A stretch of 64,000 bases of DNA from positions 10,326,993 to 10,390,992 of the forward strand of contig OZ007510.1 in the NCBI GenBank assembly GCA_963931865.1. Reading direction: 5' to 3'. Origin of the DNA: Axinella damicornis (Eukaryota > Porifera > Demospongiae > Axinellida > Axinellidae). The notes beneath the pieces were generated by a model. It was given only the letters and a program-made list of their open reading frames with translations, had not been told where the DNA came from and ran no database searches. Position 1 is the first letter of the stretch, and each line of letters opens with the position of its first letter. The translations under genes and the position numbers were made by a program. Of this stretch, positions 7,001 to 62,237 are shown in pieces.

Positions 7001-10000
7001 CCGGACCGGAAGTAGTTAATTAGTGTTTCCACGTGTCGAGAAATAATTTAGTTTGGATCATGAAGTAGGCATTGCGGCATTGCCTCGTGCAGGGAAGTCA
7101 GAGAACAGTTTAGTCTCACGAGTTGGACAGTATTTTGAAGCCACAAAGTGTTAGCGAGCTGAGGTAGCCACGCGGGTCCAAGTCTGCCGGTAGCAACGAC
7201 CCCGAATTCGAGGATGGCTTGAAGGAGGCAATCAGGCATTTGTTGGCATTTCATGGTGCTAGGTAGCTAAGTCAGAGAGCTGAACCAAGAGAGTGTGAGT
7301 AATCAAAAGCATCGAATACTACTTATTCTACTAACCATTAGATTCACCCCCTGCTCTGCTATAGCTAAGCTTGACATAAACGCAACGCTAAATACAAATG
7401 CAGTAGCAATACAGACAGTACCTTTGCCAGGGGTGTAAGATGTTTTGTAGTAGGGGGGTTGATGTGACGGACAGGTAGACTCAGTGGGCGGGCGAAGCCT
7501 GTCCTAACTAGGGGGGACCGAGGGCATGCCCCCCGGGAAAATTTTTGCTTTTAGGCACTCTGAGACTAATTTTGGTGCAATCTGAGCTGCATTGTACTGA
7601 GGTTGATTTTATGATGAAAAATGGTAGAATGACACAACAACAACAACAACAGAGCCAGCGCCATCATCACTATCTGCACCTTGCTGCTGTGTCTCGACAA
7701 CTGGTTCAGTGTTCACAGTCACCGACAATTCCTGCGATGGGTCCTGGTCAGTTTCTGTAGGACGAAAAAGTGGTACACTGATACCAGGTACCACTGTGAC
7801 GTGACAAGCAAAAACATTTAAAATGTAACAGGCTATAGGGATACCAGAACGGCAAAAACTAAGGAAACAAGGTAGGGATGATCACACAAAACATGAAGTG
7901 TACAATCCCCTCTACAGAGATCTTTTTCCATATACGTGTATAATGAAGAAAGATATGTAGGGGGGATTGTACACCATGCCGCATACCGCATGCTATAGTG
8001 CTTACACTGACTACACGTGGCTGTGCGGAAGGGGGGCGGAGCCCCCTGCCTTTGCCCCACCGGTTCTTATGCCAGTGTTTGCTGAAGTTACTTCAGGTCC
8101 CACAAAACTCCAGCAGTTGCCTGTAAGTGATACTATGTTATTAGTTGAAGTTTGCGCAAAACATCTGAGTCGTCACGCTGAGCAAGTCGCTCTACAATAA
8201 TTGCTATTTCACGTCCGGTCCGGTCCGCGTTTTCACCACGGCCACTTGGCAGTATCTGATTTACAATGCCACTCAGCTTTCAGGCTGCGCGCCTTCTGGG
8301 TGTACAGCCCTGGTAGACGTGTTACCAATTAACTATTACATGTATACCACTCGGAGAGAATTGTTTGTTAGTAGCGAGAGAATTTCCCTTGCAATTACTT
8401 CACGCGTAGGCAGGCCCGTAGCCAGCTTTTCCAGGATGGGGGTTTGCTACAGGCACTGCCGAAGGCAGTGAATAGAGGCGCATAGCAATCCTCGCGAAGC
8501 ACAGAAATTTTTTGTCAGGGTTGTTTTTTCAGTTACCTAGATGGGCTCTCGTAGCACCTTCACCGCTTCGCACTGCACTGTCACTGCTTCTGGTTTGCTC
8601 GCAATCCGTGACCGTCGCGTCTCACTCACGACGTGGATCGTGGAAAGTATCGATGCATCAATGTATGTGGTAAACGAGGATCATTTTGTGAATTCATCTT
8701 GTTCCAATTCCGGGCTGATCACAGTCTGGGAACAATTTAACATCGCTGCACCTTCTTTACTAGGCTCGGTACTGGTAGCAGCAGGCACTCGTAGTACAGC
8801 GAAGCTTTAGCCACCTTATGTGTGGAGGATAGAGAAATTTTAAGGGGTTCGATCGAACCCCTCGAACCCCCTCCTGGCTGATTCTGTGTATGTGTATATG
8901 TGTGACTTATAAGCCAATATGTCAGCTGGGTTCAAGCTTGTTCACATAGCCTGAAGCCAGACCTGTACACTGCTTTCTTCTCACAGTTTGGTTCTACATT
9001 TTGCTTGGAAAACGACTTGAACAGCTACCAACCACACTGTCTGTGGAGTTTTTAGAAGCCGTCACGATATTTGAGTATTTCGAGGATATTAGCAACGTCT
9101 ACTTCCTGTCCGACAAAGCTAAGTTGGTAAATGTACGGGATGGGCTGCAAATGATGTACAACACAGCTTTTCCATACATCAAAGAAATAGTGCGCGAAAA
9201 TCAGGAAAGGGAGACGATATCTGAAGAAACACTTCCTCAGCACAACTTTATCAAGAATATCTCAGATGGAACACTGAGCATGCGTGAAATTGTCTTCAGT
9301 ACATTGGATGTACTCTTGCCTGGGATGAGAGAGGTAAGTCATAAGAATTGACTGTTGGCAAGCAGTTACAGATATTAGGAACTGTTATAGCTGGGATGAT
9401 CATTCAATGTTCTTTTTATCCTTTTATACCCATAGGTATCTACGAATCTACTTTGGTGTCTCTACTTTCTTGCCCGTGAACCTGTTGCTCAAGAGAGACT
9501 GCGCAAGGAATTACATGGAGCAATAGGTATGGAAGAGCCAGTGACACCATCCCACATATACAACATGCCCTACCTTGAAGGCTGCTTCAATGAAGCTATG
9601 AGGTAAGATATTAACACTAGCTAGCTATACCTGTAGCCCAACAAGTTTGATCAGGAATAGTGACACCCTCTTGACCAATCAGACTGCTTATGCAGTATAT
9701 GGTGTTTAATGCTAGTTAAATCGACTAAGCGTGCATTCTGTAATCAGGGCAGGCTCTGCGCTTGCATTCTCACTGCATGCTTTTTGTTCTGCCAGCCAAC
9801 TATAGTAGCTAGCTAGCTAGCTAGCTATTGTTGCCAGTCGCTGCAGCCACTATTTGCACTTGGAACCGCTTCCAAAGTATTCCCACCCATGTACCCATCC
9901 CCTCCGGATTACACTGATTAATACTCCGTCTGGAATAGACATGATCTGAGTTGGGCCAATACCTGGAGGCTCCACCCCCATACCCCCAAGCTTTGGACAG

Positions 10001-13000: not shown

Positions 13001-16000
13001 AAAATTGTCCACTAGTACTGCTGTCAGGTGGTGTGACCGGGGTCGTTAGGGTTCTTTTCCCTGACTTGTAATTGCCCTATCCTTGCTCCATGCCTAGACA
13101 ATAGCGATTCTGCTTTTATGGGTAGGTATTTCACTGTAAAAACTATACTGGTTGTTTTAACCACAGAGTGGTTACCTTGGGTGCAGACAAGCTGGAGACC
13201 GTGGTTATTGGACAAGGGTTAGGGTAATTGCATAAGGCAACCTGCAATTGAAAGGCAACTGGCCCAGATCATCACACTGACCATCTTGGGAACATCTGCA
13301 AGGCACAACTGGTTGTCATGGAAAATTCATGCCCTTCATGGCAGCAGAGATGTTTAGTGGTTAAGATCACGCGATTATGGTTGTAACATAATCCAGAGAT
13401 GCCAACTACTTAGCAAATAAATGAGTGAAATGTGCTGTGAAAATGCGTGAGATTGTGCTAGAATGCGTGATGCATGCTACTGTAACAGCTCAAGAGTGCG
13501 CACAGCAGTTCATTTCAGTTGCTGTTGCTTCATCAATTGCTTTTGTCCTTAGCAAAAGGCTCCACCAATCAACATTTTGCTGTTTGGCAAGGTGGTAGCG
13601 CCTGCATTTATCCTCTTTGATGCGGATCGACACAGGAAAGGAGTCCATTATGTCGCTCGAACTGCGGTCGTCCTTGTCTCAAACAATCACGTGTTATGTA
13701 TACACGCGCCGTATTCCTAGGCCCCACCCACAAAATAAGCCTGAACGGCTAGCTACTAATGCGTGAGATTTGCTGTAGTAAGCGTGAGAGCGTGAGATTA
13801 TGGACGAATGCGTGAGTCTCACACGCAATGCGTGAGAGTTGGCATGTCTGCATAATCTGGGCCAGCTTCCTCTCAAGTTGCCTTATTACAGAGGTTTGCA
13901 TAAAGCTTGCAACAAGCCCTGCTTACAGTGCTGAGACTAGAAAACCACAAGTCCCACCCTGTGCCATTACCCTGTACCTTAGTAGTAGCCTCGTACCCAG
14001 GGCCTGGGGGTACGAGGCTACCTTAGTAGTACAATAATTTGCTTCCTACCCACTTAGCGCTTCCTAGCTGTACTAAGTCACTATGTACACTGCAGGGTGG
14101 GACTTGTGGTTTTCTAGTCTCAGCAGTGCTCAGCAGTGTTTGTTGCAAGCTTTATGCAAACCTCCGTAGACTCTGAACCCCTTCTAACCACCACCTCCAG
14201 CTTGTCTGCAACCAGGGAAACCACTCTGTGGTTAAAACAACTGATTGGTTTTGCTGTGCATGCATATGCATGTAGGTATCCGTATACAGGCAAACTGCAT
14301 CCATGCTGCAAATTCTGCATTGCTGCCATTGCTCCACATTTAGTTACTGCGCTGCTTGCCGCAAGTTGCTTGCTGTAGTCACTGATTACTGTATAAGCTG
14401 CACGCCAAAACTCTGCTAGCAGCTTCCTGAAACATCCATTGCTCTGCAATTACACTGGCAATGCCAGTGGAACATATAACGTAACCCAAATGGCATCCGC
14501 ACATAACTATTTTGCCCTGCATGCCAAGTGTTTCATGCCGAATAAAGGCCTGTCCTCTCAGTGGCACATTGCACTTTTACAGCTCCTTTAATTTTTCATT
14601 GACGCTGGCTCCTTTTAGGAGCCAAACTCCTCCTCATGCAGGTTGATCACCCTTTGGTATCAAAATGTGTATACCTGATGATTCCAATGGACCAAGTAGG
14701 GAGGCAGCAAGCTATAGTTAACACTGACAGGAACACCTGCATGTGTACGTTGTCAAAACAATACCAAATTGCAGACCTGCAGGATGTATGGAACGTGCAA
14801 AAGAAGTGTGTGCACAGTAACTCTGCCCATTTCTGGGTCTGCAGTGGTGACACGCTGGGTACCAGTTTCTGTTCACATGCTGACAGTTCGTGAACTGGAT
14901 AGCTCGTTATAACTGGACACTATGCTTTCCATTTCCAGCTGTTAGCTGTACATTATGCATATGTGCACTGGTTACCCTGGTTGCAGACTAGTGACAAGCT
15001 GGAGGTGGTGGTTAGAAGGGGTTCAGAGACTAATTGCATAAGGCAACTTGAGAGGAAGCTGGCCCAGATTATGTTACAACCATAATCATGTGATCTTAAC
15101 CACTAAACATCTCTGCTGCCATGAAGGGCATGAATTTTCCATGACAACCAGTTGTAGTGCCTTGCAGATGTTCCCAAGATGGTCAGTGCTCGTGCCTACT
15201 AAGGCATGGTTTAATGTATTGCACGTTACACGGAGATTCATTATAGTGTGCGAAATTAATCATTTAGTATACGGAGAAAGAAAATGGCGGTGTAAATAAA
15301 CAAGTAGAGTATGGTCTACCAGTATGCCTCTCTGGTTGATAGTTGTAGCTTCGCTTCATGATAGTCGTAGTCTATACCTTTGTTAGTTGTTTGTGGTACT
15401 CCGCTGTGCCACTCCTGTGTGGATTTCGGACGGCAGTATATACTTGACCTTCAGACTGCAAGCCATTGGTAAACCGGAACGTTCCGACACGTTCACAAAG
15501 TGCCGAGATACAGGAGAATCGAAGTGTACCTCGGTCTGATCTGATGTACAAACGGCCCCACCCAGCGAGAACGCAAAATCGAAATGCTAATCCATCAGGT
15601 GAGATTTTAGATTAGGCTTATATATTGTCGTTGACTTCCAAAGTGAACGAATTACTGAAGGTTTTACATACCGCCTAACGCGAAGTTTATTTTAATCGGC
15701 ATTACGTCATCAATTGGCCATGTTTGTTTACAGGAAGTAGTGGGCGTGGCTAAAAACAATGTAAATGTAAACTATAATGGTTTGGGATATCAGATCTACA
15801 ATTTTATTTCTTAATCCTACATCTATAAAACCTACAATATAATAGTTCTATACTACACGGTACGCATTAATCTGATATACCACTTGGTTAACCAATCAGA
15901 TTGGTATTACACTTTTTTCTCGAGGTACTGCTGTAATAGAAAGCTGATTGGCGAATACTTCGCTTAGTAACGCCGTTGCAGAACCTGGTTGCTAGGCAGC

Positions 16001-20188: not shown

Positions 20189-23100
20189 TTCCGAAAGCCA
20201 GCTATATAATATTATACTACCCTAGATCTGAGGTTTGTGGTCTCCAAAGTCATGGGTTTATACATACAGTGGCTTGCAACTGTGGGCTTTTTTCCGACTT
20301 GGAGATATTTGTGCCAACAGGTCAGCAACATGATATTTGGCTACATGATTGCATTGTTTATTTGTGTCAACAGAACAGTTTCATGCTGGCAATAAGTTCA
20401 TTGGGCATACAGGGGATCAATGAGTTATGTTCAGTGGTAGCATTTATGGCCTACTGAGCAGTATAGGCATTCATGTGTACTGCATCGGTTTGTGTATGCC
20501 CTTAGCATTTTGTGCATGATGATTAGCTGCCAAGTGTGTCTTGATTATTTATCTGCAAGCTAAGGCATTGTTAGCTACAAAGATGTGGTGGGTGTTTGGG
20601 AGATATGTTTGATGAAAAAGAGAGGCAACTGCAAGGCTACGACATTCCAACTGCCTGACATAATAAGACAGAATGAACGGCAAATAAGTAAAATGCACTA
20701 TGCTGTGGCTCAGCTAGTGTTGGTGGTAGCACTGGTTGTTTCAGTGGTAATAATATCCATACCCTTACACTGCCTAGCTTCCTCACACAGCAGACGCTAT
20801 ATACTAAAAGTAATCAAAAATGTAACAGGATGTAGGGATACCAGAACGGCAAAAAGTAAGGAAACAAGGTAGGGATGATCACACAAAACAGTGAAGTACA
20901 GTCAAACCTCCGATAGTGGACCCTCCGAGATAGGGACACAATATAATAAACCTCTCTACAAAGGACGCTTTTCAAGGTCCCAAATAATTGGTTTGCCTAT
21001 GGTTCTAATACATTTTGAACCTCCGAGAAGAGGACAACCTCTCTACAAAGGACAAAAGACTTGAATTTATATTGTTCCCAAAGTGTCCTTTGTTCGGAGG
21101 TTTGACTGTTTACGATCCCCCTACAGAGATCTTTTTCCATAATGAAGAAATATAAGTAAGGGGGATTGTATACTTCACTGTTTTGTGTGATCATCCTTAC
21201 CTTGTTTCCTTACTTTTTGCCGTTCTGGTATCCCTATATTCTGTTACATTACATTTTCATTTTATTACTTGTTTATGTCATTCTTTTTTAGCAGCAGGCA
21301 CATGTTTGAGCTGAAATTTGCCATCACAGAGGTTGTGAAAAAGCAATGGGTCGTTGCACTGCTCCGTTGAAAATGCTGCTGTTTCGTGCGAAAACCATCA
21401 TGAGAGATTGAGAGCTAAGTTGTCTGAAGAAGAAGAAGAAAGAGAAACAATTTGCCCGTTTGCGAGTGCCTGCTTTGGTACTTTCGCGATGGTTTTTCGC
21501 GACGCTGGGAGTCTTGTTGGACATGAAAACACTCGAAGATGACTGGTATGTTGTTATAAAGTGTACCGTTTCTGAGATTTTTTTTGTATTAGCATATATT
21601 GCGTGTCTGTCGTATCCTTACATATAGAGTCTACCGACTCTATGACAATCCCTGGAATATATTTCTCCTGTTCCACCACCTTGCCTTTCCATGCTAACTG
21701 TATGGAACCACTCTGAAATTTTCCCCTAGTAGGCAAAATTAGGCCAAATTCCCAATGCTATGGTGTCAAAGAGAATACCCCAAAAGACAAAGCATCATGT
21801 TGATCCTTCGCATTCATCTGCAAGGGGAACTCCGCATGCCTGGTTCATCATATCACAGTTAAATTGCAGTCTGCTTGACACAATATATACAACACCAGGA
21901 TTATCCATGCCATGGTCTTATGATAATCCATTGCACTGTAATTGCACCGGCAATTGCCTTAATGGCATTCGCACAATCATATTTTGCCCTGCTGTTTCAT
22001 GCCCAACAGAGCTATAGGTCCTCTGGGTGGACTCGTACAAAACTGTAACCACTTTTAGCAATGCAGAGAACACATCTCCTTTTGAATGCTATCACTGGCT
22101 CCTTTCGGACTTTAAAAATCCAAGATTGTCACTCCAAACATACTAATTTGTACCCCAGATGTTTTCCCTAATATGAATCCCGGCAGTCAGCCCATTTTTC
22201 TTGCAGGAATGCAAATGCAGATGCCTATATCTTGCAGCCACCCTCTCAAAGCCTATATAGAATCCCTGCTACTTGACCTGCAAGATGCCGGTTTCTGTTC
22301 CCAGAAAGGTTCATTATTATTAATAACCGGACCTCTATATGCATGTCCATTTCCGGAAATCATAGCTGTAATGTGGCACATAAAAACAGAATAATTCTAG
22401 CAAGGATGGGGCAGTCACAAGTTGTGCAAAAGAACCCTAAGACCCCTAAAAGTGGTATTAAATACATTATAGTACTGCATTATTCTTGTCGAATAACGCC
22501 ACATGGCGGCCATTTTGGAAACCACCCACCACGGCTGACGCAGGCACAATTTCACATGCCTCAATATCTGAAAATGTTCACAGTATATTAATCTATATGT
22601 GTACCAATTTTGGTGCTTTTATCAAAAAATGCACGATAGGTTTGATATGCCGCTGCACTATATAAGGTCTGGCTTGGACTGCATGTGTTACCGTGGAACA
22701 GGCCTGTTGTACTTGGAGTTTATTCTGTATCCATTAAATGTCTATTCCAGACATCAATCATCATCCCTCTGAATGTGATTGGAAGACAGCCCCAATTCTA
22801 TCCTGAACCAGAATCCTTCATGCCTGAGAGGTGGAGTGAAGAGAACAGAAAGGCACGACCATCATTTTCTTTTATACCCTTTGGGTTTGGACCACGAGTA
22901 TGTCCTGGTGAGTCTCTACAACTAAAATATGCCATTCAGATAAATCAGAGAGGGTGAGATGCCCAAAGGAAATGTTGAAGTTTAGCTAACTACCTTCTTT
23001 TTGAAGCTTCTCTTTGAGGCATGATGGGCTTCCTTCCACAGGTAAGCTGTGGCAGACCTGCATGATGGGCATCGAAGAGCCATACCTGAATGACAAGTAG

Positions 23101-26671: not shown

Positions 26672-26874
26672 TAGTTAGCTATCTGCTGAGGCTTTTATCC
26701 AGAATGTTCCTGTTGTGCGTGTGTGTTCTGATAAACATGTTCTCTGATTGGAGACCAAAAATAAACATGTTCTGACATGTTTAGTTAGCTATCTGCTGAG
26801 GCTTTTATCCAGAATGTTCCTGTTGTGCGTGTGTGTTCTGATAAACATGTTCTCTGATTGGACACCAAAAATAA
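26672..26874. repeat. Tandem duplication, ~110-bp unit
   Basis: TAGTTAGCTATCTGCTGAGG through TCTCTGATTGG and ACACCAAAAATAA occurs twice (about 26672-26769 and 26782-26874), nearly identical. It lies 160-360 bp upstream of the beta-helix gene, so it could be a duplicated upstream element. Intergenic sequence from 24.0 to 26.9 kb otherwise shows only repeats. Confidence 0.85.
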
Positions 26875-33336: not shown

Positions 33337-34257
33337 ATGGAACACGGCTCTACGCATGTGTGGATGTACGACTGCTCCGATGAGGAGTTCATCTCCGACA
33401 GTGAACTGCAGGAGGGAATGTGGTTGAGGTGAGTAGACGGATGACCCTTGCCTTCATAGTCACACAAAATTTTATGTTCACTACTCCATAATGAGCATAG
33501 TAGCTGTAATTCAGTAATTTCCCCCTACCCACCGCCACTCCCCCACTGTTCCCGCCCCCCACTGTCCGCAGCCCTACTCCCCCCTCCCCCCCACTGTCCG
33601 CACCCCCCAACAAACATGCAAGCACATGCTGTTAGACACAGAACGTGGTAGTCTCGTGCCCACACTCCACTCTGGGTGTGAGCATGAGACTATGAACATG
33701 GATCAAGAACGACACCACTAGTCCCAACCTTAACCGTTTAGGACCATAGCGCCAAATGTCGTCATAATACTTTCAGCTTCATCATGTGACTTCCGTCAAT
33801 GTCCTTGGGAGATAGGTTCTGCGATAGCAGAAAGGGCGGGACAAGGGGAGGTGGGTGGGTTCCCCCAGGAGGGTGCAAACAGCATGGCCGTGTCTGGGCT
33901 CTGCAATAGAAAGGTCTTGGTCGCCACTGGGAGGGCCTTTTCCATCGATTTTGGCATAAATGGGGTCAGAAAGTAGCCGTCTGGCTTTGTAGGGCCTCCA
34001 TTTCCAGCATACATGGCCCGTTTTTCAACTACGACAGGTTGCCATTTCTCGGGAGACTTGATTGCAAGTTTGTTAATTGGTGGGCGTGGTTAGTATAGCT
34101 GAAATTACCTGTGTGAGCAGTTTCGAGCCCAGCAATGCCAGGGAACAGAAATTAGGGTACGTTTAAGTGTTCAAGAAATTTGGGCCCTAAAGAGTTTTAA
34201 GCTATACATACAGATTACTGTACAGATGCCAATTGCTCTAATGGATTGTCTTCCTAC

Positions 34258-35736: not shown

Positions 35737-38700
35737 AATTAGCATTTGACCCAACACTGGGATAGACTACCCACAGGAGTAGAATACCGGTGAATGAGTG
35801 GTTTTGTGCATATGACCTCCTAATATGTGGTCTCTGTATGTTTCCTTAAAGGCCTCTAATGTGTCATGGACATCTTATACATGTAGGCCGACTCGGAAGT
35901 GTACCCCCTTTATTTTAATAGTCTTGCTAGGCAGTCTCAATGTCCTCCTCTTGGTATTCCAAGACCGATTATAAACCATGTCCTCCTCTCCCTTCCCCCC
36001 ATCTCCTCACAGTCCCTCTCCTCCCCCTGTTCACAGCCCCCCTCCCCTCCCCCACCTCCTCACAGCCCCTAACACTCCTCCCCTCCCCCCTGCTCACATC
36101 CACTTACTCTCCTCCCCTCCCACCTCACAACCCCTAACCTTCCTCCCCTCCCCCCACCTCCTCACAGCCCCTAACACTCCTCCCCTCCCCCCTGCTCACA
36201 TCCGCTTACTCTCCTCCCCTCCCACCTCACAACCCCTAACCCTCCTCCCCTCCCCCCACCTCCTCACAGCCCCTAACCCTCCTCCCCTACCCCCTGCTCA
36301 CAGCCCCTACCCTCCTCCCCTCCTGCCCCTGCTCACAGCCCCTAACCTTCCTCCCCTCCCCCCACCTCTTCACAGCCCCTAACCCTCTTCCCCTCTACCC
36401 ACCCCCTCACGGTGCCTAACCCTCCTCCCCTCCCCCCTGCTCACAGCCCCTAATAATCTTGTCCTCGCCCCTGCTCACAGCCCCTCCCCTCCTCCCCTCC
36501 TGCCCCCTCCTGCCCCTCCTCACAGCCCCTAACCCTCTTCCCCTCTCCCCCCTCCTCACAGCTCCAAACCCTCCTCCCCTCCCCCCTGCTCCGAAGGGGA
36601 TCATCAAGACGAGACTGGTGCCTGGTCTGAAAAAGATGAGGAAGCAGCGAGTCCGGTGGGAGAGCGCGAGGCCCAATTTACGCGGTTTGTTGCTGTAACA
36701 AAAGCTGACTAGTATTAATTTGGTAGTGTGTGACAGTGGTGCCATTCCAATTGGTGTGCCCTGTGGAAGATTGTATTTGCACATAGTATCACGGTTTCTT
36801 TTGGGGGGTGGGGGAAGGGGGACATTCCCCCCCCCCCCCCCCCTTAGACATTTCAATGCCAGAGCCCCCTTATTCAATCGCCCCCCCAAACTTCTCTACA
36901 TGTATGTTCTGTTTTGTGATATTTTCCCTGGTGCCGGTTCATCTAATACTGCACCAGCAGAGAGCTACATGTACAGTAGCTATAGTGGGGCTCAGAATGG
37001 CGCATGCCTATGCAATCGTCTGTAGTACTAGCGGTTGTCCTCTATAGTGACATTCATGAAGTATACATGTACAGTTGCATGAGGCATATACATGTATTGA
37101 CACAAGGCTTCAATGGACAACGCACTATTGATAGGCAGAGCCTGTACTGGTGTGTACAGCGTCTCTAAAATATATACCACCCTCATTTCACTTGCAGATA
37201 GTGCTGAGTCCCAGAGGGGCCGACGTACCCGTCGCACGGACACCAACGTCCTTGCGGTGAAGTTCAACACGCTCACCGGACCCAGCCACGTGCACACGGG
37301 GGACCGTGTGGTGTGCTGTAACCCTCAGTGCACATCCATCCTCTCCCACCTGTCCAAGGTGGAGGGAGGCACGCAAGACCAGAAGGTGGGAGGGTGTCCG
37401 GGAGCTGTATAGGTGTGGCCATGGGAGGGATGTGAGTGGTTGTGGGTGTGGCACTCCTGGGGTGAGAATTCTCTCCCCAGGAGTGGGTGTGGCATGGGAC
37501 GGGGGTGGGTATGGCATGGGAAGGGTGTGGGATATGTTATCATATTGTGTGTACGTCTTACCCCAGGAGTGGGTGGCATGGGGACAGGGGTGGGTGTGGC
37601 ATGGGACGGGGGTGGGTGTGGCATGGGAAGGGGGTGGGGTATTTTATGATGGTGTGTGCATGTATTTCTCACCCCAGGAGTGGGTGTGTGAGTTCTGTGG
37701 CTCAAAGAATGAAGTCGATGTTGTGCCGGAGGAGCTACCGACAGAAGCGGACACCACGTACATGATAGCCCCAGCCCCACTAGTGGGAGGCGGGGCTGGG
37801 GGTGGGGTCGGCATGGAGGACTCCCTTGTCATCTTCTGTATTGACATCTCCGGCAGTATGTGTGTCACAACAGAGGTGGGCAGAGTCAGCCAGTCCTACT
37901 AGCTACATACAGTGGGCGAAGTCAGCTAGCTACATACAGCGGGCGAGGTCAGCCAGTCCTACTAGCTACATACAGTGGGCGAAGTCAGCTAGCTACATAC
38001 AGTGGGCGCAGTCAGCCAGTCCTACTAGCTACATACAATGGGACTTCTCTTTCTCTATAGCGGTCACAGTGGGACCTTATAGGGAAGCTATCCTTTATGG
38101 GAAGATTACACGGCATAATGAGTGTGCTCTATTTTAGAGGTTGTTGGGGTGCCTTTATTAGAATTTCTAGTGACTTTCCACTCCTGGTTATGTGCATGTA
38201 AATATGTATACTCTGCACTACAAAGCGTTTTCTTCTTCTTGCAGGTAGCTGGTAAGTTTGAGCTGAAGGGTCATGATCGTGTGCGGGGGCTCTCCTCCCT
38301 CAATATGCACGGAGAGGACCAGTACATGCCCAGACAGAGGAGAGACGTCACCTACGTCTCCAGGCTGCAGGTTAGACAGGCATGCACTGCAGTGCTGGCC
38401 TAGTCTCGTTCCCAGGCTCTCTCCTGGGACCGAGGCTAGTGCTGGCCTACCCTCGGTCCCAGGCTCTCTCCTGGGACGGAGGCTAGTGCTGGCCTAGCCT
38501 CGGTCCCAGGCTCTCTCCTGGGACGGAGGCTAGTGCTGGCCTACCCTCGGTCCCAGGCTCTCTCCTGGGACGGAGGCTAGTACTGGCCTAGCTCATTCCC
38601 AGGCTCTCTCCTGGGACCGAGGCTATAGTGCTGGCCTACCCTCGGTCCCAGGCTCTCTCCTGGGACGGAGGCTAGTGCTGGCCTACCCTCGGTCCCAGGC

Positions 38701-41647
38701 TCTCTCCTGGGACCGAGGCTAGTGCTGGCCTAGCTCATTCCCAGGCTCTCTCCTGGGACCGAGGCTAGTGCTGGCCTACCCTCGGTCCGAGGCTCTCTCC
38801 TGGGACCGAGGCTAGTGCTGGCCTACCCTCGGTCCCAGGCTCTCTCCTGGGACCGAGGCTAGTGCTGGCCTAGCCTCGTTCCCAGGCTCTCTCCTGGGAC
38901 CGAGGCTAGTGCTGGCCTAGCCTCGTTCCCAGGCTCTCTCCTGGGACCGAGGCTAGTGCTGGCCTGCCCCACACTAATTTGTATATAGTGTGCTGTGTCT
39001 TCGGTTGCATCCTATGTACACATACATGAGTGTTGTACATGTAGGACAAGCCTGTGTGATGGTGATCGGGATAGTGAAGTTGCCCCCCCCTCCCCCACAT
39101 AACACACACACTCCTCCAAACCTGCACAGAGTGTGCAAGCGGCAGTGGACCACCAGCTCACGACCCTGACCAGCTCACACCCCTCTCAGAGGGTGTCTCT
39201 GGTCACCTTCAGCGACGAGGTCAGGGTGATGTATATATGTGGCACTGTCATCTACAGCTTCTCTTGAAGAATCGTTTCTGTTGCTATGGCAACAGCACTT
39301 TCTGTACCCCTAGGGCTTCCATGCATTGAGGCTGTACATGTGTATGAGGATGTGCAGTGCATGAGTGGCTGCAGACTGAGCCATCCGTACCAGATTTTGT
39401 CCTGGAGGACACACAGAGTTACTAAAGCTTCCAGTGATGCCCTAGTGGCACCGTATCACATACGAAACCCTCCCAGGTCTTCTTCCCAAACTTCCCAAAG
39501 CTGCAAGACAAAATCTGGGGCAAAAGGCCCAGAATAAGATACTGTTCAGCCGTGACCACTGACCAGGAATGTTGAGCTAAACTCATGCACTTGCTGCGCT
39601 TCTGCATGTACCTCAACTCAGAAGTCTACTTCAAGCAATTCTTGAGGCCACTGGCCTGCGCACCGCATTCTTCTCTTCTGGAGAAAGCAGGGACTAGCTC
39701 CTGTGAATTCAAATCTGTACATAGTAGGCCAGTGGACACAAAGAAGTGTTGTTACCATAGCAACAGAAAATATGTGGCCATCCGTGGTTCTAGATGTGAC
39801 TGAAGTATCTAGTTGGTTGACTCCATGTTTGTGTGTGGGTGTTTCAGGTGACGGTGGTAGGGGATGGGAGGGGTGAGGTGGTGACGGTGGCAGGGGATAA
39901 GCTGTGGAACTCCGATGCCGTGGTGAAGGTTGGAGGAGAGGTCACCTTGCCAGCTGCGGTCAGGGAGACCCGCAGTGCTCTCAGCAAGAAGGTCTTTGAG
40001 TAAGTGAGCACGCATCTCTGAAATACAGGCAGCTGAATCTCAGTCACACATCAAAGCACTTGCTACACGTGCACAGTGGTTGAAAATTAATGGGACAATT
40101 TTGAAGGATCTGATCGACCCCGCATGATCCCGACACAAATGAAGTGGAGATCACCCACTATCTTCTGCACAAACAACATGCCTGCAGTAAATGATACATT
40201 AGTCCAACTTTGCCACAATCTCGCTATAACTACGCGTATGATCAGACACTAATATAGGACAAGGCATGTATGTCTTCTTTGTGCATAAATGTGTTGTCTC
40301 ACTCTGCCCTCTTAGTCTGGAAGAAGGGGGTCAGACGGCCCTGGGACCTGCTCTGCTGCTCTGTGTGACCGTAGCAGCCAGAGTACCAGGTTCAAAGGTC
40401 AGTGAATCACACCATGTACTGGAGTAGGGATCGTTTCACGTGCCTATACTCAAAGCAGGGGCTCGCCCCATGAGGCACTTGCATCCTCTAGAGCAACTGA
40501 ATTATGCCTCAAGTCCACCTCTCACCTCGTGGATACTTTAGCGAACTCCGATTGTGTTCACCAGCTCTATCTTATTGCTTGAGCTTGTACATGTGGCTTG
40601 CTCCAATCAATGTGTATGTGATATCATGTGCTGCCTACCGTAGAGTACGTATCAAGTGCCCACCTCCCTCTTCACGCGAAAGTTACTGCACAGGGTCCAA
40701 AAGCAATGTAGTAAGGGCCCACCCATCACAAAAGTTTTGAGCAGCATTTCTTAACCTCTGGGCGAGGTTGTACATTCAAAAGTGAAGTATGAACTACGGC
40801 ATGCTTTCCCTGTCGAGCATTTTCTTCTCAAGGACTTATATATTCATAGCCGGTCATATATTCATAGCTTACAGTGGCGCTTGTTGTGGGTGGGCGGATA
40901 CTACATGCCTAAGTAGTCTGAGTACGCATCTAGCGCCCACCTCCCTGTTCAGCGGGCGTTCAACTTAATACTACTCTAACGGTATATATAAGATTTTAAC
41001 CGTGTGTTCATGTACATGTGTGTGTGTTACCTGTGTAGGTGATAATATGCACTGACGGCCTTGCAAACAAGGGAGTCGGAAACCTGGATGGTAAGTCTGC
41101 ATACTTCAGAAGGTCTTATTGTAAAGGCCTTCCCATGCAACTTTCATTGCTTGCAGTATGAAAGTATGGAGCAAGTATTTCCCGTGTGGTGTCTGCTATT
41201 GTCATTGCAGAGCATATCATGTTCTGGATACAGCAGCTGGCCCAACAACTAGCAGAGAGCCACACAGAGTGTATAAAGCATATTCAGGCTATGAGTCCTT
41301 CCTTTGAAGGGATACGGATACTCAAAGCATTGATTCACCACACAAAGCATGCGTTTAGCAAGTTCTGTCCCTTCAATGGCAGCTGTCCCAGTGGCTGCCT
41401 CCTCTCTGCAACTTGTCTGGTCTCTGCAACTTGTAGCGGACGATAGCAAGCTGGATATGCGCACTTCTCTTCTTGTTATATGAACTGTTGTGCATAGCAG
41501 AAGCTCCACAGCCTCCTGAACCCCTGCCTCTGAAGGCAGAGTGCATGTTACCATAGAGATGGTTGTAAAATGTCCAGGTGGCCATGATGTACGTACATGT
41601 GCTGTTGTTAGCTTGCAATGTGATCACAGTGTGTAACTGCCCCTGTC

Positions 41648-41740
<93 letters not shown>

Positions 41741-43384
41741 CTGTGTCAGTGATTTCTACTGTGACTTACTGCCTCAGATCTGAGCACGGATGAAGCCAAG
41801 GATGCTGCCCAGACGTTCTATGAAGACCTTGGAGCATTGGCACTCGAGAAGAAGTATGTTGAGTATGGAATTAGAGCACACCCATAATTTTGTGACCACA
41901 GACCTATATTGTATATGTTTACTTACCAAGTCTCACGCTTTGGACGTGCATCAGTGTCACACTTCAGCACACAATCTCACACTCTCACGCTGTAACGAAG
42001 CATTCTGATGCCTAGGAGGATCCGACATGAGATCTTGCTTATGGGACAATCATCAAACGTCTAGTGAACAAATTTCAAATGTATAATTTTGTTGCCTGTA
42101 CATGCAACATGGTTGGTCTGTCTTTCCTGGCTGTGTTGATTATTGTGGTCATCTCATGTTCTGCACCTTGGCAGATCTGACGCAGTTATCATATTAGCTG
42201 GCAAAGGCCCTTCGAGGGGATGAAATGCTACCAGCACTTGCATCAATGTTATTTCCTCATTTGTGGCCGAATTAAGGTTTCAAGCCTGAGCTACATGGCT
42301 CAAGTTGCACTCTATTTGATTATTGCATGGAGGATCCGTAGTGATCCATTGTACTGTAATTGATCATTGACTACGTGCACAAGCATATGATTTGACTTGA
42401 GGAATGTTTTCGATTGCAATTGCAGGTGTGTGAATATTAAAATGCAAAGCACGCACAAAGCTTTACTTTTTACATTGTGTGCGTGTAAGAACACAATTGC
42501 AGTTTGCCCTCAAAAAAAAACATGGAGACATATTTTATGTACTTTGCAATCTGACCTACAATACTGTGAACACATGGAAAGGAAACACTGGTCTAGCCTC
42601 GTCCCCAGGCCTCCACCCAGATTATATCTCGCAGCCGTGGAGAAAACTTTTCTCCACGGCTACGAGATAAAATCTGGGCGGAGGCCTGGGAGCGAGGCTA
42701 ACACTGGTCCACCAGTTACATAACATTGCATACATATCTGTTCTTCTCAGTGTGACTGTTTCCCTGGTGACCATCAAAGGGACCGACTGCAAGACCCTGG
42801 AGTTGGGGCAGGTCGCTGACACCACCGGGGGACAGGTAACGGATACAACATTATCCAAAACCAATTGTAGTCACAGCTACAGCTGGGGTCAAGAGATGTT
42901 GACATTATGCAAACAGCCTTGACACTTGTTAGCCTCATTCCCAGTCCGCTTTCTCCCCTCCTACGTAGCCTGGGAATGAGGCTACCTTCGTGCTTTGACA
43001 ACTTTGTCTGTTGTTGCTGGAGGTTCTCTACTGTCTTCTTTTCTTAACTGTACTGCTGGTTATGGGCTGGGGAGATAAGGGGATGATACTGAGACCGGAT
43101 ATGCTTGCTCATTGAATAGTTCCACATACAACATACATACATGTACATGTACATGTACGTATAGTGTCATCAGCTTGAAGTGTGTGCTGATGCTATAGCT
43201 TCACACAGCTGTAGTGTGTGTGTTACGTGTGCCGTCCTTTCTGTCTGTGCAGGTGACCATTGTTGATCCTCTGAATATCACGAAAGAGTTCAGCAGCATC
43301 CTGGCCAATCCGGTCATTGCCACTGATGTTATGACCAAGATCGTCCTCCACAGTGACCTGTGAGTGAGAGAGAGAGAGAGAGAT

Positions 43385-51837: not shown

Positions 51838-54800
51838 CTGTTGTCAAGTATCAATAACCCACTCACAAACAGCCCTCTCAAACTTTCACTCCGATAAGGT
51901 GAAAATGCTCCAGCCAGGTATGCACCAGTAAATTGTCTCCATATCTGCAGGCAGAAGAATACAACTACTGGGTAATGAACAGTGTACGTGTGTGCATTCC
52001 AGCCAGTAAGGCCAACCTCATCTGTGAGGCCTTGAGATGTCCTCATACTTGTTGCTATCACTTCTTCCAGCCTGCAAGAAGTGTGCAGAATAAACAATGC
52101 ATGGTACAAGTGGCTTGATGCAAGAAGATCTAGAGGAGGGAGAATTCGGCTGTGTATCAAATTAACAACTGGAGACTGTATTCGACCTCTACCAGTTAAT
52201 TGTCCAATGGAATGCAAGTCTCACTGTATAATGTCTGTATTTAGTTCAGTTATGAGTTCTTTTTTCACTTAATAATGGATAAGGAAACCAAAGTGGTCAC
52301 GAAACACAGTATGAAGCAATGCATTGCATGGCATAGTTCAGGCAAGGTCATTGCCTCACGGAATATAGCTCATAATCCTACCTCTCAATTGTACTAAGGT
52401 ACTTTGCCTTCTGCATTCCATGCCCTAAGGCACAAACCTGAAACAAAATGGTCACAGTAAACCCATCAACAATTTATTAGTGCACAACACTTGCATATGC
52501 CATATACCTTATGCATCCAAGCATTTGGTTCTAAAGTGTTTATAGCGTGCAAATATTGTGAATTTTCTTTTACAGCAAACCTGAGGAGAAGAGTTCAAGA
52601 ATACCAACTGAGATCATGCACTGATCAATACATGTTGCATGATTATTGCTTGTTGCCATGGTTACAAGTATAAACAATCCTATTGAGTTTTGTAATCAGA
52701 TTATAGCTGGCTTGAAATAAGTATTGTTACATTGAGTGCACTACAGGATTTGTTGCACGAAGGGCAGGCCATGAGGCGTATGCAGCGTGAAGCAAAGCTG
52801 AGTGCTGTATTTTCTCATTACAGGTCTCTACAGCTCCAAGCAGGTCTATTCTGTATACATATATGAATACTACACGATGAACATACGAAGAGAAATTCTC
52901 AGAGCTATCATCGCAATAATGAAGCAAGTATCAGCTCACCTTGAGTGGGCGCCTTCAATATATGGAGGGTTACACCAAAGAAGCAAGATGGTTAACATGA
53001 GTGATATTACTTCATAAGCTTCATGGAATGGGTTTTTTTTACCTGGTCCTATACCAATATAGTCCACCCCGGTCCAGTAGGACATGTTATGCTGACTCCA
53101 AAATCCCTGCATGGATGTGTATATAAAACAGAGGCAGTGAACTGCTAGCCTCATTCCCATGCAGCCTGGGAACGAGGCTGATGAACTGCATGCCACAAGG
53201 AAAAGGGCTCCAATTGAGCGACTGTGCTCACATCTCTTGCAAAGTTGGAGATCTCGTATTGTACCAACCCTGCATTGTTCAGCATCTGAAATTGACAACA
53301 CGCATAGTCTCATTGCTCACGAAGGGTGCATGCTGTGCACGCATGCACTTAACAGGTGTTCTCTCACCAATATTGCTGCTTCATACATGTCAGCAATAGC
53401 ATCCTCACTAGGTAACATCTATCAGGTAGCAGAGCAGGAGGTATGCATGCAGTCATTATCTCACATTCCCATGCACACTGTCAACACTACTGTTAGTAGT
53501 CTGTTCTACGTCAAGTGTTTCATACAGGGTATATTGGATAGCACACTGGTGCAGCCTACAGAACATACAGTTTGTGTACCAGCTGTTGATAGATATGCAT
53601 TACCACGCATACATATTGAATACGAGGGCATCCTAGCATGCATATACGGACTCTCAGCCCCAGCCCCAGACCACTTCCAGTGATTCTGGAAGCGATCCAA
53701 GCTGGGTGTTGGTTTGGGTTAGGGGCCAAGACTAGTCTCGGTCCCTGACCCAATTACCAACCCCAGCACGGATCGCACATTATACTACACGCGCTGGATA
53801 AACGGTCTGGGAACGAGACTAGGCCAAGACTAGTAAATACATGGCACATAATGGCACAAAAATTAATCATCAAGAGTGATACATAGCTAGTTCTCTAAAT
53901 GAATCAACCTGTATACCACTTCACTTTTCCTCAGGGCTTTGGACAGAGGTGTTCCCTCCTCCACTGTGAGTTGATAGAGTGACATATGGTTGCCACACAG
54001 TGTCAATACCTGCAAAAATCATAAAAGTATAACCTAGAATCTTCATGTACCTAGCTTCTGTGAGTGCTCAAACATGTTTGAAGTACAATCTATCTATAAT
54101 AATTTTCACGCGTACGTCACACTTCTGAGCATGTGCAGTAGTATCATTGACCATGTCCTTTTATGTCGCAAGTCATAGTGCCACGGGTTGCAACACACAT
54201 GACCGTTGAATAGTTGAAGGAGGCGGGGTTCAGGGCTGGTTGACCATGGGTATTGTAGGGCTGAGTCCGGGTAGTTTTATATTAATAGCAAGCAGCAATA
54301 GCATTCGGTAGGCTAGTTGAACTGATATATGTCCACACGATTAAGCAGTATGTGACATCACATGTATACGTATGTGTTAACTGGAGTGTATCGTAACTTT
54401 GTAATAATTATGATCGGGCCAGGGTAAGAGTAGTGCAAGTACGAGCTGGTAGATCGACGCAATCGGATCCTCTGAAGTATCCACATAGTGCATGATGAGA
54501 GGAAGACCTGAGGCATCATTTTATGAATGAGTTTGCTCTACCAGCTGTGGTATTCAGTCAATAGTGTTACAACACGTGCCCACACACAATAAGAACAATA
54601 GCCATATTTATACAGAACTACGTAGCCATGAGATGCTAACAGTTCATAGTTCATGCCACATCTTCCCTTCTCGGGAGGGGCAATGTGAGTTCCTAATCAA
54701 ATACCACACATGCATGCAGCACACAATGAAAAAGCACTAAAGTGCAAACCTCGCCCTCATGTAGCAAAGCGTACCCATAAGATCTACTAGTGGAATGCAG

Positions 54801-58500: not shown

Positions 58501-60577
58501 GATGATAGGGGGCCGCATTCAAAGATCAAAGCTAGATAGCTATATGTGAACTGAATTGGATTCTTTGTACCCACGCTGCTCAGTACACCACGTACCTCAC
58601 ATATTTGTTGAAGTTACAGTATGAGCATAGCTGTGAACAGTACGGCCACTGCAATAAAATTAGTGTGTGTGAATTAATATCTCATACACAGAAACGAGTT
58701 TGGTTAGGGGCATCCCCAAACCATTAAAGGATGTGCGAATTAATATATCATGCACAGAAACTAGTTTAGTTACATGTAGGGGCATCCCCAAACCATTCAA
58801 GCCATTGGGTGCATTAAAAGATCTCATGCACAGAAACGAGTTTGCTTAGGGGCATCTCGGGATCCCCAAACCATTACACTTGAAGTAACATTAAAGTAAT
58901 GTCAAGTTTTGATCCCCCCCCCCCCCCCCCCCCCCCCCGTCATACAGCATGGTGTTTTGCTACAAACTACAGTGATGAAACAAAGCTGCCGACAGACATG
59001 ACAAGTGAGGTGGTTAGACACCTCGAGTCATGTTTGCACAACACAATAACAATACCCCCCAACACACGTACACACGTACACACACACACACACACACACA
59101 ATGACATTCTTTTCTTTGGAGAAGTCAAGGAGAATTATCCTTAAGGTAGCAGATACCCCTTTACGTTAGGTTACCTTTTTTGGCCCCCAACGTTTAAAGG
59201 TAACCTAACGTAAAGGGGTGTCTGCTACCTTAAACGTCGGGGGCCCCCGACGTTTAAAGGTAACCTAATGTAAAGGGGTATCTGCTACCTTAAGGTACCC
59301 CTTTAACCCTTTAAGCCCCATTGACGTCTATAGGCGTCATTTAGACCCTATGCACTTGTAGGGCTTCTCGTCAGTCCAAAAAGTGACCAAAAAAGCTTCA
59401 AGCGGGGGGGTATCGAAAGGGGGGGCGGCATGTCATGGGCGTTTTTTGATTTTAATGAGATTCATTGACCCGAGGATTTTTGATTCTAATGATATTCATA
59501 GACCCCACCCAGGGCCTCAAGAAAACATGCAAATTGGTGGTGTAAAGTGTGCCATCAGTCAGATCTGGCCCAAGTTTAGGGAAATGCTGGGCGAAAATCC
59601 GGCTGACATCCACCTTTGACCTCCAATTGCTGGGCTTGTGGGGGGTCATGAATATCATTAACGGTATTGCCAGAGGGGTCTCTCCATGTGTGTGGGCCCC
59701 ACCAAGTTTGGCCGCTGAGCAGCGAATGCTGTGGGAGAGGAGTACCTACGAAAGTGGTGTGCGCTGAATGCATGAAAATGTGTGGTCTTGGTGGGAAGAA
59801 TTCGGTGGTTAAAGGGTTAAGGGGTATCTGCTACCTTAAGGTAGCAGATACCCCTTTACGTTAGGTTACGTTAGGTTACGTTAGGTTACCTTTAAACGTA
59901 ACCTAACGTAACGTAAAGGGGTATCTGCTACCTTAAGCAACAAATCACCCAGGCGTCTGTAAACACTGGCTGGACTGGACTCACCAAATCTGTAAAATGC
60001 CTTTTTCAGTGTAGGACAGAAGCTAAGCATACTTATTCATTCACTAAGGTTGCTTGCATAGCCTGCTTTCGTGTCTTTCCTCAAGTCGGTATCGAGAGGT
60101 CAAAGGTCACATGCATATTTAATGAGCTTCAGCAAAATGCGCTTCAGTCACAGTATTATTTCAGTCAGTATTATTTGTTTTCTATTTCTGCAGTAAATAA
60201 ATGCTCTTCAAATTAAGCTTATTAAATATGCACGTGACTTTTTGACCTCTACCGACTTGAGGAAAGACACGAAAGCAGGCTATGCAAGGAAATAAGTATG
60301 CTTAGCTTCTGTCCTACACTGACAGATGTTTGGGTGAGTCCAGTCCACTCCACCAGTCCAGTGAATAAAGACACCCCTAGCTAGCTAGCTATAGCTACAG
60401 CCCAGCACATGCAGCAACACACACATGAATGTAGACAGTTCCTCTTCTGCTCTTTGTTTCTGCAACACTTGAATCACACCCTTCCACAACCACAGAAGAA
60501 CAGCAGAGTCCTCTCACTCTCCACGGCAATGCAGCAGCAGTAGTATGAGCAGCAGACCTAGTCGCCCACACTTGCAT
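51838..60577 (-). CDS. RSAD1: Radical SAM domain-containing protein 1 (HemW-like), at least 16 exons
   Basis: Heme-handling radical SAM protein, normally mitochondrial. Exons in coding order (minus): 60577-60425, 58648-58596, 58293-58187, 57049-56917, 56782-56737, 56050-55989, 55851-55746, 54009-53917, 53418-53368, 53285-53232, 53106-53043, 52952-52940 (13-nt microexon), 52797-52731, 52437-52382, 52071-52017, 51944-51838. Phases agree throughout (1,220 nt, 406 codons plus 2 nt). Motifs: Arg-rich, acid-poor N-terminus fitting a mitochondrial presequence; [20 protein letters not shown] with the CxxxCxxC 4Fe-4S site; YFGGGTPS; VTLEANPTS; TRLSLGVQSLND; FPGKTSMDMIFGRP; HMSLYQLTVEEGTPL; VQYEISNFAR; HNMSYWTGVDYIGIGPGAHS; LGHG; LEEVIATSMRTSQGLT. 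This follows the human RSAD1 order. The last exon is tentative (see 51668-51780). Exon 13 fits by phase but is weakly family-like. Confidence 0.88.
53146..53180. mobile_element. TAGCCTCA micro-hairpin with 8/9 TSD
   Basis: 35 bp. TAGCCTCATTCCCA and CTGGGAACGAGGCTG are the ends. The flanks GTGAACTGC and ATGAACTGC match at 8 of 9. It lies in RSAD1 intron 10, 40 bp from the exon 11 acceptor. Confidence 0.8.
53733..53821. mobile_element. TAGTCTCG hairpin with perfect 9-bp TSD GGCCAAGAC
   Basis: 89 bp. TAGTCTCGGTCCCTGACC and GGTCTGGGAACGAGACTA are the ends. GGCCAAGAC occurs at 53724-53732 and 53822-53830. RSAD1 intron 8. Confidence 0.9.
55300..55600. repeat. Interspersed repeat with (GACA)n tail and GGCGGGGCGAGGTT end
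   Basis: GACAGACAGACAGACA at 55523-55550 is followed by ACTAGAACCTCCCCCGC and GCGGGGCGAGGTT, a small GC hairpin. It resembles the 10.3-kb and 16.8-kb GTCT-containing repeats. RSAD1 intron 7. Confidence 0.55.
56096..56714. mobile_element. TIR element filling RSAD1 intron 5
   Basis: 28-bp ends ATACCGTATAGCGGGAAAAT and ATTTTCCCGCTATACGGTAT are perfect inverted repeats, followed by TTGGCGGG and several ATCGCCAAATT motifs. No ORF. It occupies 619 of 686 intron bases. Confidence 0.9.
58660..58890. repeat. Three tandem ~80-bp units in RSAD1 intron 1
   Basis: Each unit has ATCTCATGCACAGAAACGAG (or close) then GGGGCATCCCCAAACCATT. Spacing is about 75-85 bp. Confidence 0.85.
59141..59936. mobile_element. 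TTAA-flanked palindromic element hosting a second TTAA element
   Basis: The ends TTAAGGTAGCAGATACCCCT and AGGGGTATCTGCTACCTTAA carry ACGTTAGGTTA repeats inside. The same end sequence recurs internally, suggesting earlier nesting. The element at 59307-59816 splits it. Confidence 0.8.
59307..59816. mobile_element. piggyBac-like MITE with TTAA TSD, 510 bp
   Basis: TTAA at 59303-59306 and 59817-59820. TIRs CCCTTTAAGCCCC and GGTTAAAGGG. It shares ~490 bp with the truncated copy at 10.95 kb. TTAA targets and CCCTTT-like ends are typical of piggyBac. Confidence 0.85.
59957..60363. mobile_element. Palindromic MITE with ~150-bp arms
   Basis: The left arm starts GGCTGGACTGGACTCACC and includes CAGTGTAGGACAGAAGCTAA and CTTTCCTCAAGTCGGTA. 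The right arm holds the complements and ends GGTGAGTCCAGTCCACTCC. A partial copy is at 640-950. Confidence 0.85.
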
Positions 60578-61228: not shown

Positions 61229-62237
61229 ATTGCACATGACGTCATCATGGCAGCTAATATTTGTGTTTGTGGAGATAACAGCTTCTATGGAGATCTCGGC
61301 AAATGCAGTCATGCACCAACAATGCAGTCATGCACCAACAATGCTTCTAGTATGTGTTGAATTGAGATTGATATGTAGGCTATTAAAGCTATACAAGTGT
61401 AACAAGTGAGTCTTTAAAAGACTTGATGTGTCTCGGCACGACTTGGTATCAGCTAGAATCATGCAGAGGACATGGCAGCTGCTTAACCCTTTATTATGAC
61501 TGCAAAACCTGTTAGCTACGAGACTTTCAGCTCAAGTGAGCGTCAATATCCTTGGAGGTTCTGTGTGAGCAAGGGGTGGGTCAGGAATGTTCACCCAAAG
61601 GGTGAAAGCAGTCTGGGCTTGATGTGTAGTCAACACCTTGGCCAATTCTTTCAGCACTTATCTATAGGCCTATAGCTAGCTAGCTAGAGCTGAGTGAGCT
61701 TTAGTATGCACTTGGGATGGCTGAGTGCAGCACACTGGATGGGCCAGTGAGTATTCATTGTCCTGAATTCATTGTCCTGAATTAAGTATTAGAGCTATGT
61801 AGCAGCAGTCTTGGTAAGAGGATTCATGAGCAGCCATTCAAACCCATAATCAATTTTGAAGATCTACTTGCAGGCTATAAATACGTTTGACACCCTATTA
61901 AGGGTGTAGAGCATGCATGCAGCACTTGCGCGGGCGCATTGCGAAAAGCGACGTACCACGTACGTACGTACGCACGTACGTACGTACGTACCTACGCATC
62001 CAGCACTGTGTCTCGGCACTTCGGTGCCGAGACAAAAATGTATGGAGATAAAACAGTTCAGTATACAACCCCATCTTACATATCTTTTCCACACATGTAT
62101 AATGAGAAAAGTATGTAGGGTGTTGTATACTGAACTGTATACTGAACTGTTTTATGCCATCATCCCTTCTTATTTTTTGCTGTTCTGCTATCCCTACATC
62201 TCCATACATTTTTAATGTTTTTTACACTTGTTTACGT
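61229..62237. other. Intergenic stretch with simple repeats and a MITE fragment
   Basis: No gene recognised. Holds a CAGTCATGCACCAACAATG duplication (61305-61343), (ACGT)n near 61957-61992, the GTCTCGGC hairpin (62012-62034) and a MITE fragment (62040-62236) related to 20819-21250. Confidence 0.6.

Follow-up and report, generated by a model that had tools for sequence, protein, structure and literature searches.

The stretch analysed here (hereafter the window) comprises 64,000 nucleotides of the sponge Axinella damicornis (GenBank assembly GCA_963931865.1, contig OZ007510.1, positions 10,326,993 to 10,390,992 of the forward strand). Within a putative intron it holds a minisatellite in which hairpin elements alternate with copies of a single 9-bp target site duplication (TSD). 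We consider it very likely that this array goes back to one insertion of a small hairpin element, followed by a TSD-anchored duplication, probably with help from the hairpin, and then by unequal exchange or slippage in a 47-bp register.

The twelve units of the array are arranged head-to-tail (Table 1). TRF reported the array at 38391-38969 with a period of 47, 12.3 copies and 93% matches, and its score of 979 was the highest among the 58 rows of the window. The 9-mer GTGCTGGCC is present 13 times, once as the variant GTACTGGCC, so that the 12 elements and 13 TSD copies follow the n + 1 rule, and no exact GTGCTGGCC was found outside the array in the 64 kb on either strand. Ten of the 12 spacings between successive 9-mers are 47 bp, one is 48 bp and one is 46 bp. 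A sequence-only reading of the window had described twelve 47-bp units with the 9-mer also preceding the first. The twelve units and thirteen 9-mers stand, with the amendments that one unit has 48 bp, another has 46 bp and one 9-mer is a variant. The same reading had given every unit one hairpin sequence, but only three of the 12 left arms are exactly TAGCCTCG, the others being TACCCTCG (six units), TAGCTCA (two) and TAGTCTCG (one).

All units have the orientation of unit 1 (11 comparisons, with forward identities of 0.89-0.97 and reverse identities of 0.66-0.76), and all 12 belong to one subfamily. Units 2, 4 and 6 are identical, as are 7 and 10 and also 11 and 12, and one left-arm variant is common to units 5 and 8.

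Table 1. Features of the window (window positions) and tandem loci elsewhere in the genome (locus handles)
Location	Strand	Feature	Basis
38392..38964	+	minisatellite, 12 units (9-bp TSD, then hairpin element of 37-39 bp) and a terminal 13th TSD; 9-mers start at 38392, 38439, 38486, 38533, 38580 (GTACTGGCC), 38628, 38675, 38722, 38768, 38815, 38862, 38909, 38956	TRF, 9-mer positions, unit sequences
38392..38400	+	outer left (first) TSD copy, GTGCTGGCC	
38401..38438	+	hairpin element of unit 1, 38 bp	inverted-repeat scan, sequence
38580..38627	+	unit 5, 48 bp: GTACTGGCC, left arm TAGCTCA, additional TA	
38722..38767	+	unit 8, 46 bp: left arm TAGCTCA as in unit 5	
38871..38908	+	element of unit 11; 38-bp identity to dispersed single copy G000:C1:3409258-3409295	
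38956..38964	+	outer right (last) TSD copy	
38245..38370	+	putative upstream coding exon, VWA-domain-like gene	
38371..39129	+	putative intron holding the array, phase 0, GT...AG	sequence, exon reading frames
13986..14020	.	35-bp solo relative flanked on each side by CCTTAGTAG (TSD 9/9)	
33649..33692	.	44-bp solo relative (TSD 7/9)	
42594..42700	.	107-bp solo relative flanked on each side by ACACTGGTC (TSD 9/9)	
53146..53180	.	35-bp solo relative (TSD 8/9)	
53733..53821	.	89-bp solo relative flanked on each side by GGCCAAGAC (TSD 9/9)	
L052		22 units of 58 bp, 23 TSDs, 9-mer AGCCTGGAC, highly uniform	
L064, L066		dimers, two identical 35-bp elements and three TSDs each	
L065		17 units of 57-94 bp	
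L068		8 units of 43 bp, 9 TSDs, 9-mer TGGGTGTAT	
L111		28 units of 47 or 51 bp, 29 TSD copies with at most 2 differences	
L119		10 units of 39 bp	
L130		6 units of 45 bp	
L131		trimer	

The hairpin family as a dispersed mobile element

We searched the genome from which the window comes (226,483,885 bp in 120 contigs). The exact pattern TAGCCTCG-N10-30-CGAGGCTA was present at 2,363 places, copies within arrays included, and its reversed control at none; the full hairpin had no match in viral contigs or in the contigs of prokaryote-only genomes. The pattern count and the relatives in the window show that dispersed copies have terminal inverted repeats in common and a TSD of fixed length, 9 bp, as is characteristic of miniature inverted-repeat transposable elements (MITEs). 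Elements of a few tens of base pairs are too short to code.

Nine paired relatives lie in the window outside the array, with TSDs matching at 9/9 positions in three, at 8/9 in one and at 7/9 in one (Table 1), and with no TSD in four. Their flanks reached an identity of 0.654 for a TSD length of 9, and for none of the other lengths between 3 and 15 did it exceed 0.32. For the wider family we read every one of the 42 places that head the list for contig C1 (67702 to 4002617). A TSD of at least 8/9 was found in 24 of them (15 at 9/9 and nine at 8/9) compared with 0.2% of shuffled flanks, and among lengths from 3 to 15 only 9 stands out. Four copies probably have 10-bp TSDs (L074, L085, L094 and, at 8/10, L098), and the remaining 14 have weaker ones, four of them at 7/9. 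Two loci, L070 and L091, have flanks in common and may represent a single duplicated insertion.

The array's own element is also found elsewhere. Its 20-bp core is present at 24 genomic places, of which 11 are in the array and 13 outside it, no two of the latter near each other. All 13 outside copies were read, and each shows zero to three differences from unit 11 across 38 bp. They carry the hairpin without GTGCTGGCC and have private TSDs at 9/9 in five cases, 8/9 in three and 7/9 in three, with none in register in two; at one of the 13 (L146) the end of another element lies 9 bp upstream. The array junction AGGCTAGTGCTGGCCTA, for its part, occurs at nine places genome-wide, all inside the array. 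Given these outside copies, their TSDs and the array-specific junction, the array element was mobile and the array insertion is one of at least 14. It is the only array among the insertions with the exact core.

These counts bear directly on the idea that the array is an ordinary minisatellite whose unit is palindromic by chance, and that the dispersed hairpins were thrown out from it. Minisatellites that change by unequal exchange are common, and several others are present in the window. However, the 13 dispersed copies lack GTGCTGGCC, eight of them have their own TSD at 8/9 or better, and the exact hairpins of the wider family run to thousands of places (see above), all of which makes such an origin scarcely credible. 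An order in which the array came first and the solo copies later was likewise rejected, because most solo copies have private TSDs.

Judged by the length of its TSD alone, the family may belong to the Mutator superfamily. Mutator-like elements (MULEs) produce TSDs of 9-11 bp, a range into which that of the hairpins falls. The MULE domain PF10551 had 51 matches in the genome, and 33 of the 51 lie within open frames 419-1336 aa long. Many of the transposase frames, the longest of 1336 aa, look intact, and some form groups with identical scores, which suggests multi-copy families.

Tandem loci across the genome and their proposed origin

To survey spacers on contig C1 we took junctions of the form GAGGCTA-N1-30-TAGCCTCG, listed almost to the contig's end. 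Twenty-three of the 64 junctions, at nine loci, have a 9-bp spacer, and the other 41 are spread over 20 of the 29 other lengths with no more than five each, or 1.41 per length; nine loci against an expected 1.41 gives P = 2e-5. The element-plus-TSD unit had been thought vulnerable to arrays with periods unrelated to element plus 9 bp. Over spacers of 1-30 bp and nearly all of C1, only the 9-bp spacer recurs, in three arrays, and no other length forms an array of its own. The departures are partial ones: an 11-bp spacer variant inside a 9-bp array on C1, extra flank at L114, and one unit of L119 that lacks the usual left end.

Exact GAGGCTA-N9-TAGCCTC junctions number 375 genome-wide. We read 44 loci, namely the window array, all 18 loci among the 9-bp junctions listed, and 25 from a complete list of A/T spacers (those with A as first base or, read on the other strand, with T as last base; 30 loci, five of them already read). 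Because all 44 were preselected by their 9-bp junction, the unbiased test of spacer length is the C1 survey. By reading, like units stand in tandem at 25 of the 44, and the 9-mer and period are private to nearly every one of these loci (examples in Table 1). At another two (L051 and L120) two unlike elements form a dimer with three TSDs. A search of other loci for element-TSD-element arrays had been suggested, and such arrays are found there. The definition of the repeat unit as element plus 9-bp TSD is borne out by the window array, by 24 further arrays or dimers and by the solo copies with 9-bp TSDs.

Most elements in the tandems are 28-50 bp long, the extremes being 15 bp (L117) and 95 bp (L053), and in 20 arrays all units point the same way (159 of 159 unit comparisons). 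L060 and L061, which lie 17 kb apart and have the same 9-mer, are probably one duplicated array. At positions of about 500-701 of L117 (G000:C5, about 501400-501600) there are eight 15-bp palindromes, perfect or nearly so, of the form TAGCCTC-W-GAGGCTA; behind each stands GGGGAAGGC or a near variant of it, and the period is 24. This is perhaps the family's smallest TSD-bearing unit, or perhaps a hairpin after loss of its loop. The spacer ATGGTGATA of L134 (G000:C14) is the exact reverse complement of TATCACCAT at L122 (G000:C8), and the elements differ; chance or a common target may account for the coincidence. At L123 and L124 (G000:C8, 25 kb apart) a complex mirrored cluster of element ends surrounds AGTTTCATC and its reverse complement, probably as a duplicated region.

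The course that we favour for the window array would begin with a single insertion of a 38-bp non-autonomous hairpin DNA transposon, with ends TAGCCTCG...CGAGGCTA, at GTGCTGGCC in the putative intron. The insertion duplicated 9 bp of target and left a TSD on both sides, as the solo copies and the TSD at both ends of the array show. The segment of TSD plus element between the two 9-bp direct repeats would then have been duplicated by strand misalignment or by microhomology-primed template switching between the TSDs, and extrusion of the hairpin probably aided this step. Nine base pairs are too short for ordinary homologous recombination. Since only a 9-bp direct repeat would have been available at the first duplication, slippage or microhomology-primed template switching appears the most likely route. 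Once two units were present, unequal exchange or slippage in the full 47-bp register would have produced twelve units and shuffled their variants, as the patterns in the unit distance matrix suggest (identity of 2, 4 and 6, of 7 and 10 and of 11 and 12, and the variant of 5 and 8). Many other insertions would each have followed the same course on their own, ending as dimers, trimers or arrays with as many as 28 units. More rarely, a target already in use would have received another, different element, perhaps because the target preference resembles the element's ends.

Several observations weigh against this account. Seventeen of the 44 loci have a 9-bp junction but lack an outer TSD or are complex in structure. 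The 25 tandems were called by reading, and neighbouring units fall below 0.8 identity in L114, L133 and L134, as a result of alternating lengths or of units cut by the parser. Orientation agrees in 23 of 43 comparisons over L059, L117, L118, L133 and L134, where the units form perfect palindromes, give ties, are mixed or were split by the parser. Breakpoints do not always lie in the TSD, since L114 copies 13 bp of flank, L053 its right flank and L065 an internal piece, all beyond TSD plus element. We infer the first duplication from its product, and slippage, microhomology repair and rolling-circle routes would all yield that product. Finally, no transposase is linked to the element's ends, and the ends at the 51 MULE-domain matches were not read.

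Agreement between the two arms was compared at six positions. It lies well above the level expected under independence at position 10 (34 of 40 against 23.5) and a little above it at position 9 (38 against 34.3). We did not use such co-variation as a sign of hairpin-templated repair, because subfamilies could also explain it.

The sequence-only reading had offered serial re-insertion alongside unequal exchange and rolling replication. In serial re-insertion separate element copies enter the same 9-bp target in turn and produce TSD-E-TSD-E-TSD, and this does happen in the genome, at two loci. At L051 three copies of GGTCAYGAT lie around elements of 427 bp and 387 bp from different dispersed families (each has about 40 near-full-length relatives among the matches listed, and neither matches the other's family in those searches). 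At L120 three exact copies of ACTCCCCAC lie around elements of 26 bp and 120 bp, the right end of the latter being diverged. Target preference points in the same direction. We compared 52 distinct empty sites, from which sites flanked by other elements had been removed and among which L003 and L072 partly overlap. They favour C-T/A-A ahead of the 9 bp and T-A/T-G behind it, and within the 9 bp G at the first and C at the last position; their mean match to GGCTA-N9-TAGCC is 3.54/10 against 2.45 (sd 0.18) at random places of the window (z = 5.9; z = 4.4 for the 35 single-element sites alone). Because empty sites resemble GGCTA-N9-TAGCC, an inserted element would supply half of a preferred target beside each TSD, which would favour re-insertion.

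The window array nevertheless does not have the structure that this process would leave. Its 12 units all point the same way and come from a single subfamily, for which the genome search found only 13 further copies with the exact core. Moreover, unlike-element or complex junctions exceed chance only modestly, at 14 of the 30 A/T-spacer loci against 6.2 expected (P = 0.005), where the expectation is a rough one scaled from C1 and the background is probably too low because the A/T-spacer pattern is looser. One of the 14 non-array loci, L110, has like ends joined. Serial re-insertion is therefore very improbable as the source of the array, for which uniform orientation and subfamily led us to discard it, and we retain it for L051 and L120. 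At L113 (G000:C3:13249759-13250667) two members of the 427-bp family, the second 73% alike, meet in opposite orientation across AGCTGCCAC; the far right copy of this 9-mer is exact and the far left copy matches at 5/9, and a double insertion into the same target is possible there.

Alternatively, one element with one TSD might have been circularised by recombination between TSDs, amplified as a rolling circle and put back. The unit and its junctions are as expected from such a process, and several arrays are highly uniform, L052 among them. The two dimers and the trimer in Table 1, together with the patchwork order of variants, speak instead for stepwise growth, and the exact junction of the window array occurs at no other locus. 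We thus regard a rolling-circle origin as unlikely.

Returning to single insertion and stepwise duplication, a broader proposal, which we offer tentatively and without preferring it, is that the hairpin family acts as a generator of minisatellites. Its ends would match its own target preference (CTA-G...C-TAG-like), a hairpin between 9-bp repeats might be intrinsically prone to tandem duplication, and a fixed share of insertions might go from one unit to two and eventually to long arrays. If this were true, the genome would hold a complete frozen series of satellite births, each labelled by a private 9-mer and period. The starts of satellites are usually inferred from arrays that are too old or too long for the first step to show. 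Here the 9-bp TSD is an internal label in many independent arrays, dating the insertion before the array, and a single assembly preserves stages of one, two, three and more units. Population reads thereby make it possible to measure rates, the hairpin's role and the homology needed for the first duplication.

Host intron and other repeats of the window

The position of the array in an intron is indicated by the GT/AG borders and the reading frame. The joined exon peptide matched VWA_2 with an E value of 1.5e-5 and 26 bits, just below the curated 27-bit cut-off, and the exon at 38245..38370 by itself (43 codons) gave no family match. The host gene may be a circularly permuted Ras homologue. The transcript had been expected to carry twelve stable hairpins. 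The predicted RNA fold of the array is indeed very strong (-419.5 kcal/mol; z = -17.2 relative to 100 shuffles). In the minimum-energy prediction, however, the units pair with one another and form a single long structure, not the separate hairpins expected.

Upstream of the array and near the host gene lies a C-rich minisatellite (36037-36586, period of about 34-37 bp, more than 13 copies). A second inverted-repeat family, TTACGTTAGG/GGTAACCTAACG, has arms of 38-43 bp in two adjacent clusters at 59141-59937, and another hairpin-type repeat, TACAATCCCC...GGGGATTGTA, is present with diverged forms at 7901-7971, 21111-21170 and 62062-62129. A 110-bp tandem duplication at 26672-26874 (1.8 copies) is probably recent, as its copies have 98% matches.

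Relation to known systems

MULE MITEs and foldback elements resemble the hairpin family in being non-coding, with inverted-repeat ends and TSDs of 9 (sometimes 10) bp. They differ in that no MULE copy with the ends of the hairpin family has been demonstrated, the MULE copies here being known by domain only.

The fly transposons that form tandem dimers are kilobases long. In two reviews, tandem dimers of transposable elements through double insertion, with insertion preference as the main cause, are credited to McGurk and Barbash 2018, the junctions of P-element tandems are TSD-sized, and a hobo array has 16 copies (PMC12628747, PMC9659126). As described there, the fly dimers are like our tandems in consisting of transposons with one TSD copy between them and in expanding to longer tandems. 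In contrast to the double insertions of flies, the elements here are mostly hairpins of 28-50 bp, most resolved tandems appear to be copies of one insertion, and many independent loci present the stages n = 1, 2, 3 ... 28 side by side.

Tetris of Drosophila virilis is described as a foldback transposon whose TSDs are 8-10 bp long and whose internal repeats gave rise to satellites (PMC4079207). The hairpin family is likewise of foldback type and seeded arrays, but the Tetris satellite unit is a 220-bp internal repeat in the terminal inverted repeat, whereas the unit here is the whole element plus TSD. MITE hairpins or stem-loops have also been invoked in the birth of repeats for MITE-derived tandem repeats of Xenopus and in the Angel hairpin model of zebrafish; in the review passages on them the repeats either lie within the MITE or derive from stem-loops that were released, and the TSD is not named as the border of the unit (PMC12628747).

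Among the papers listed, our literature search found no report of the hairpin family or of arrays of micro-hairpin element plus TSD. We know of no 9-bp TSD in the repetitive extragenic palindromes (REPs) of bacteria. REPs are likewise 20-40 bp long and high in copy number, but prokaryotic, and the abstract portion of the source is silent on a 9-bp TSD (PMC3733652). Tandem transposons separated by a TSD are already published, and what is new here is the small size of the element and the many independent births of arrays in one genome.

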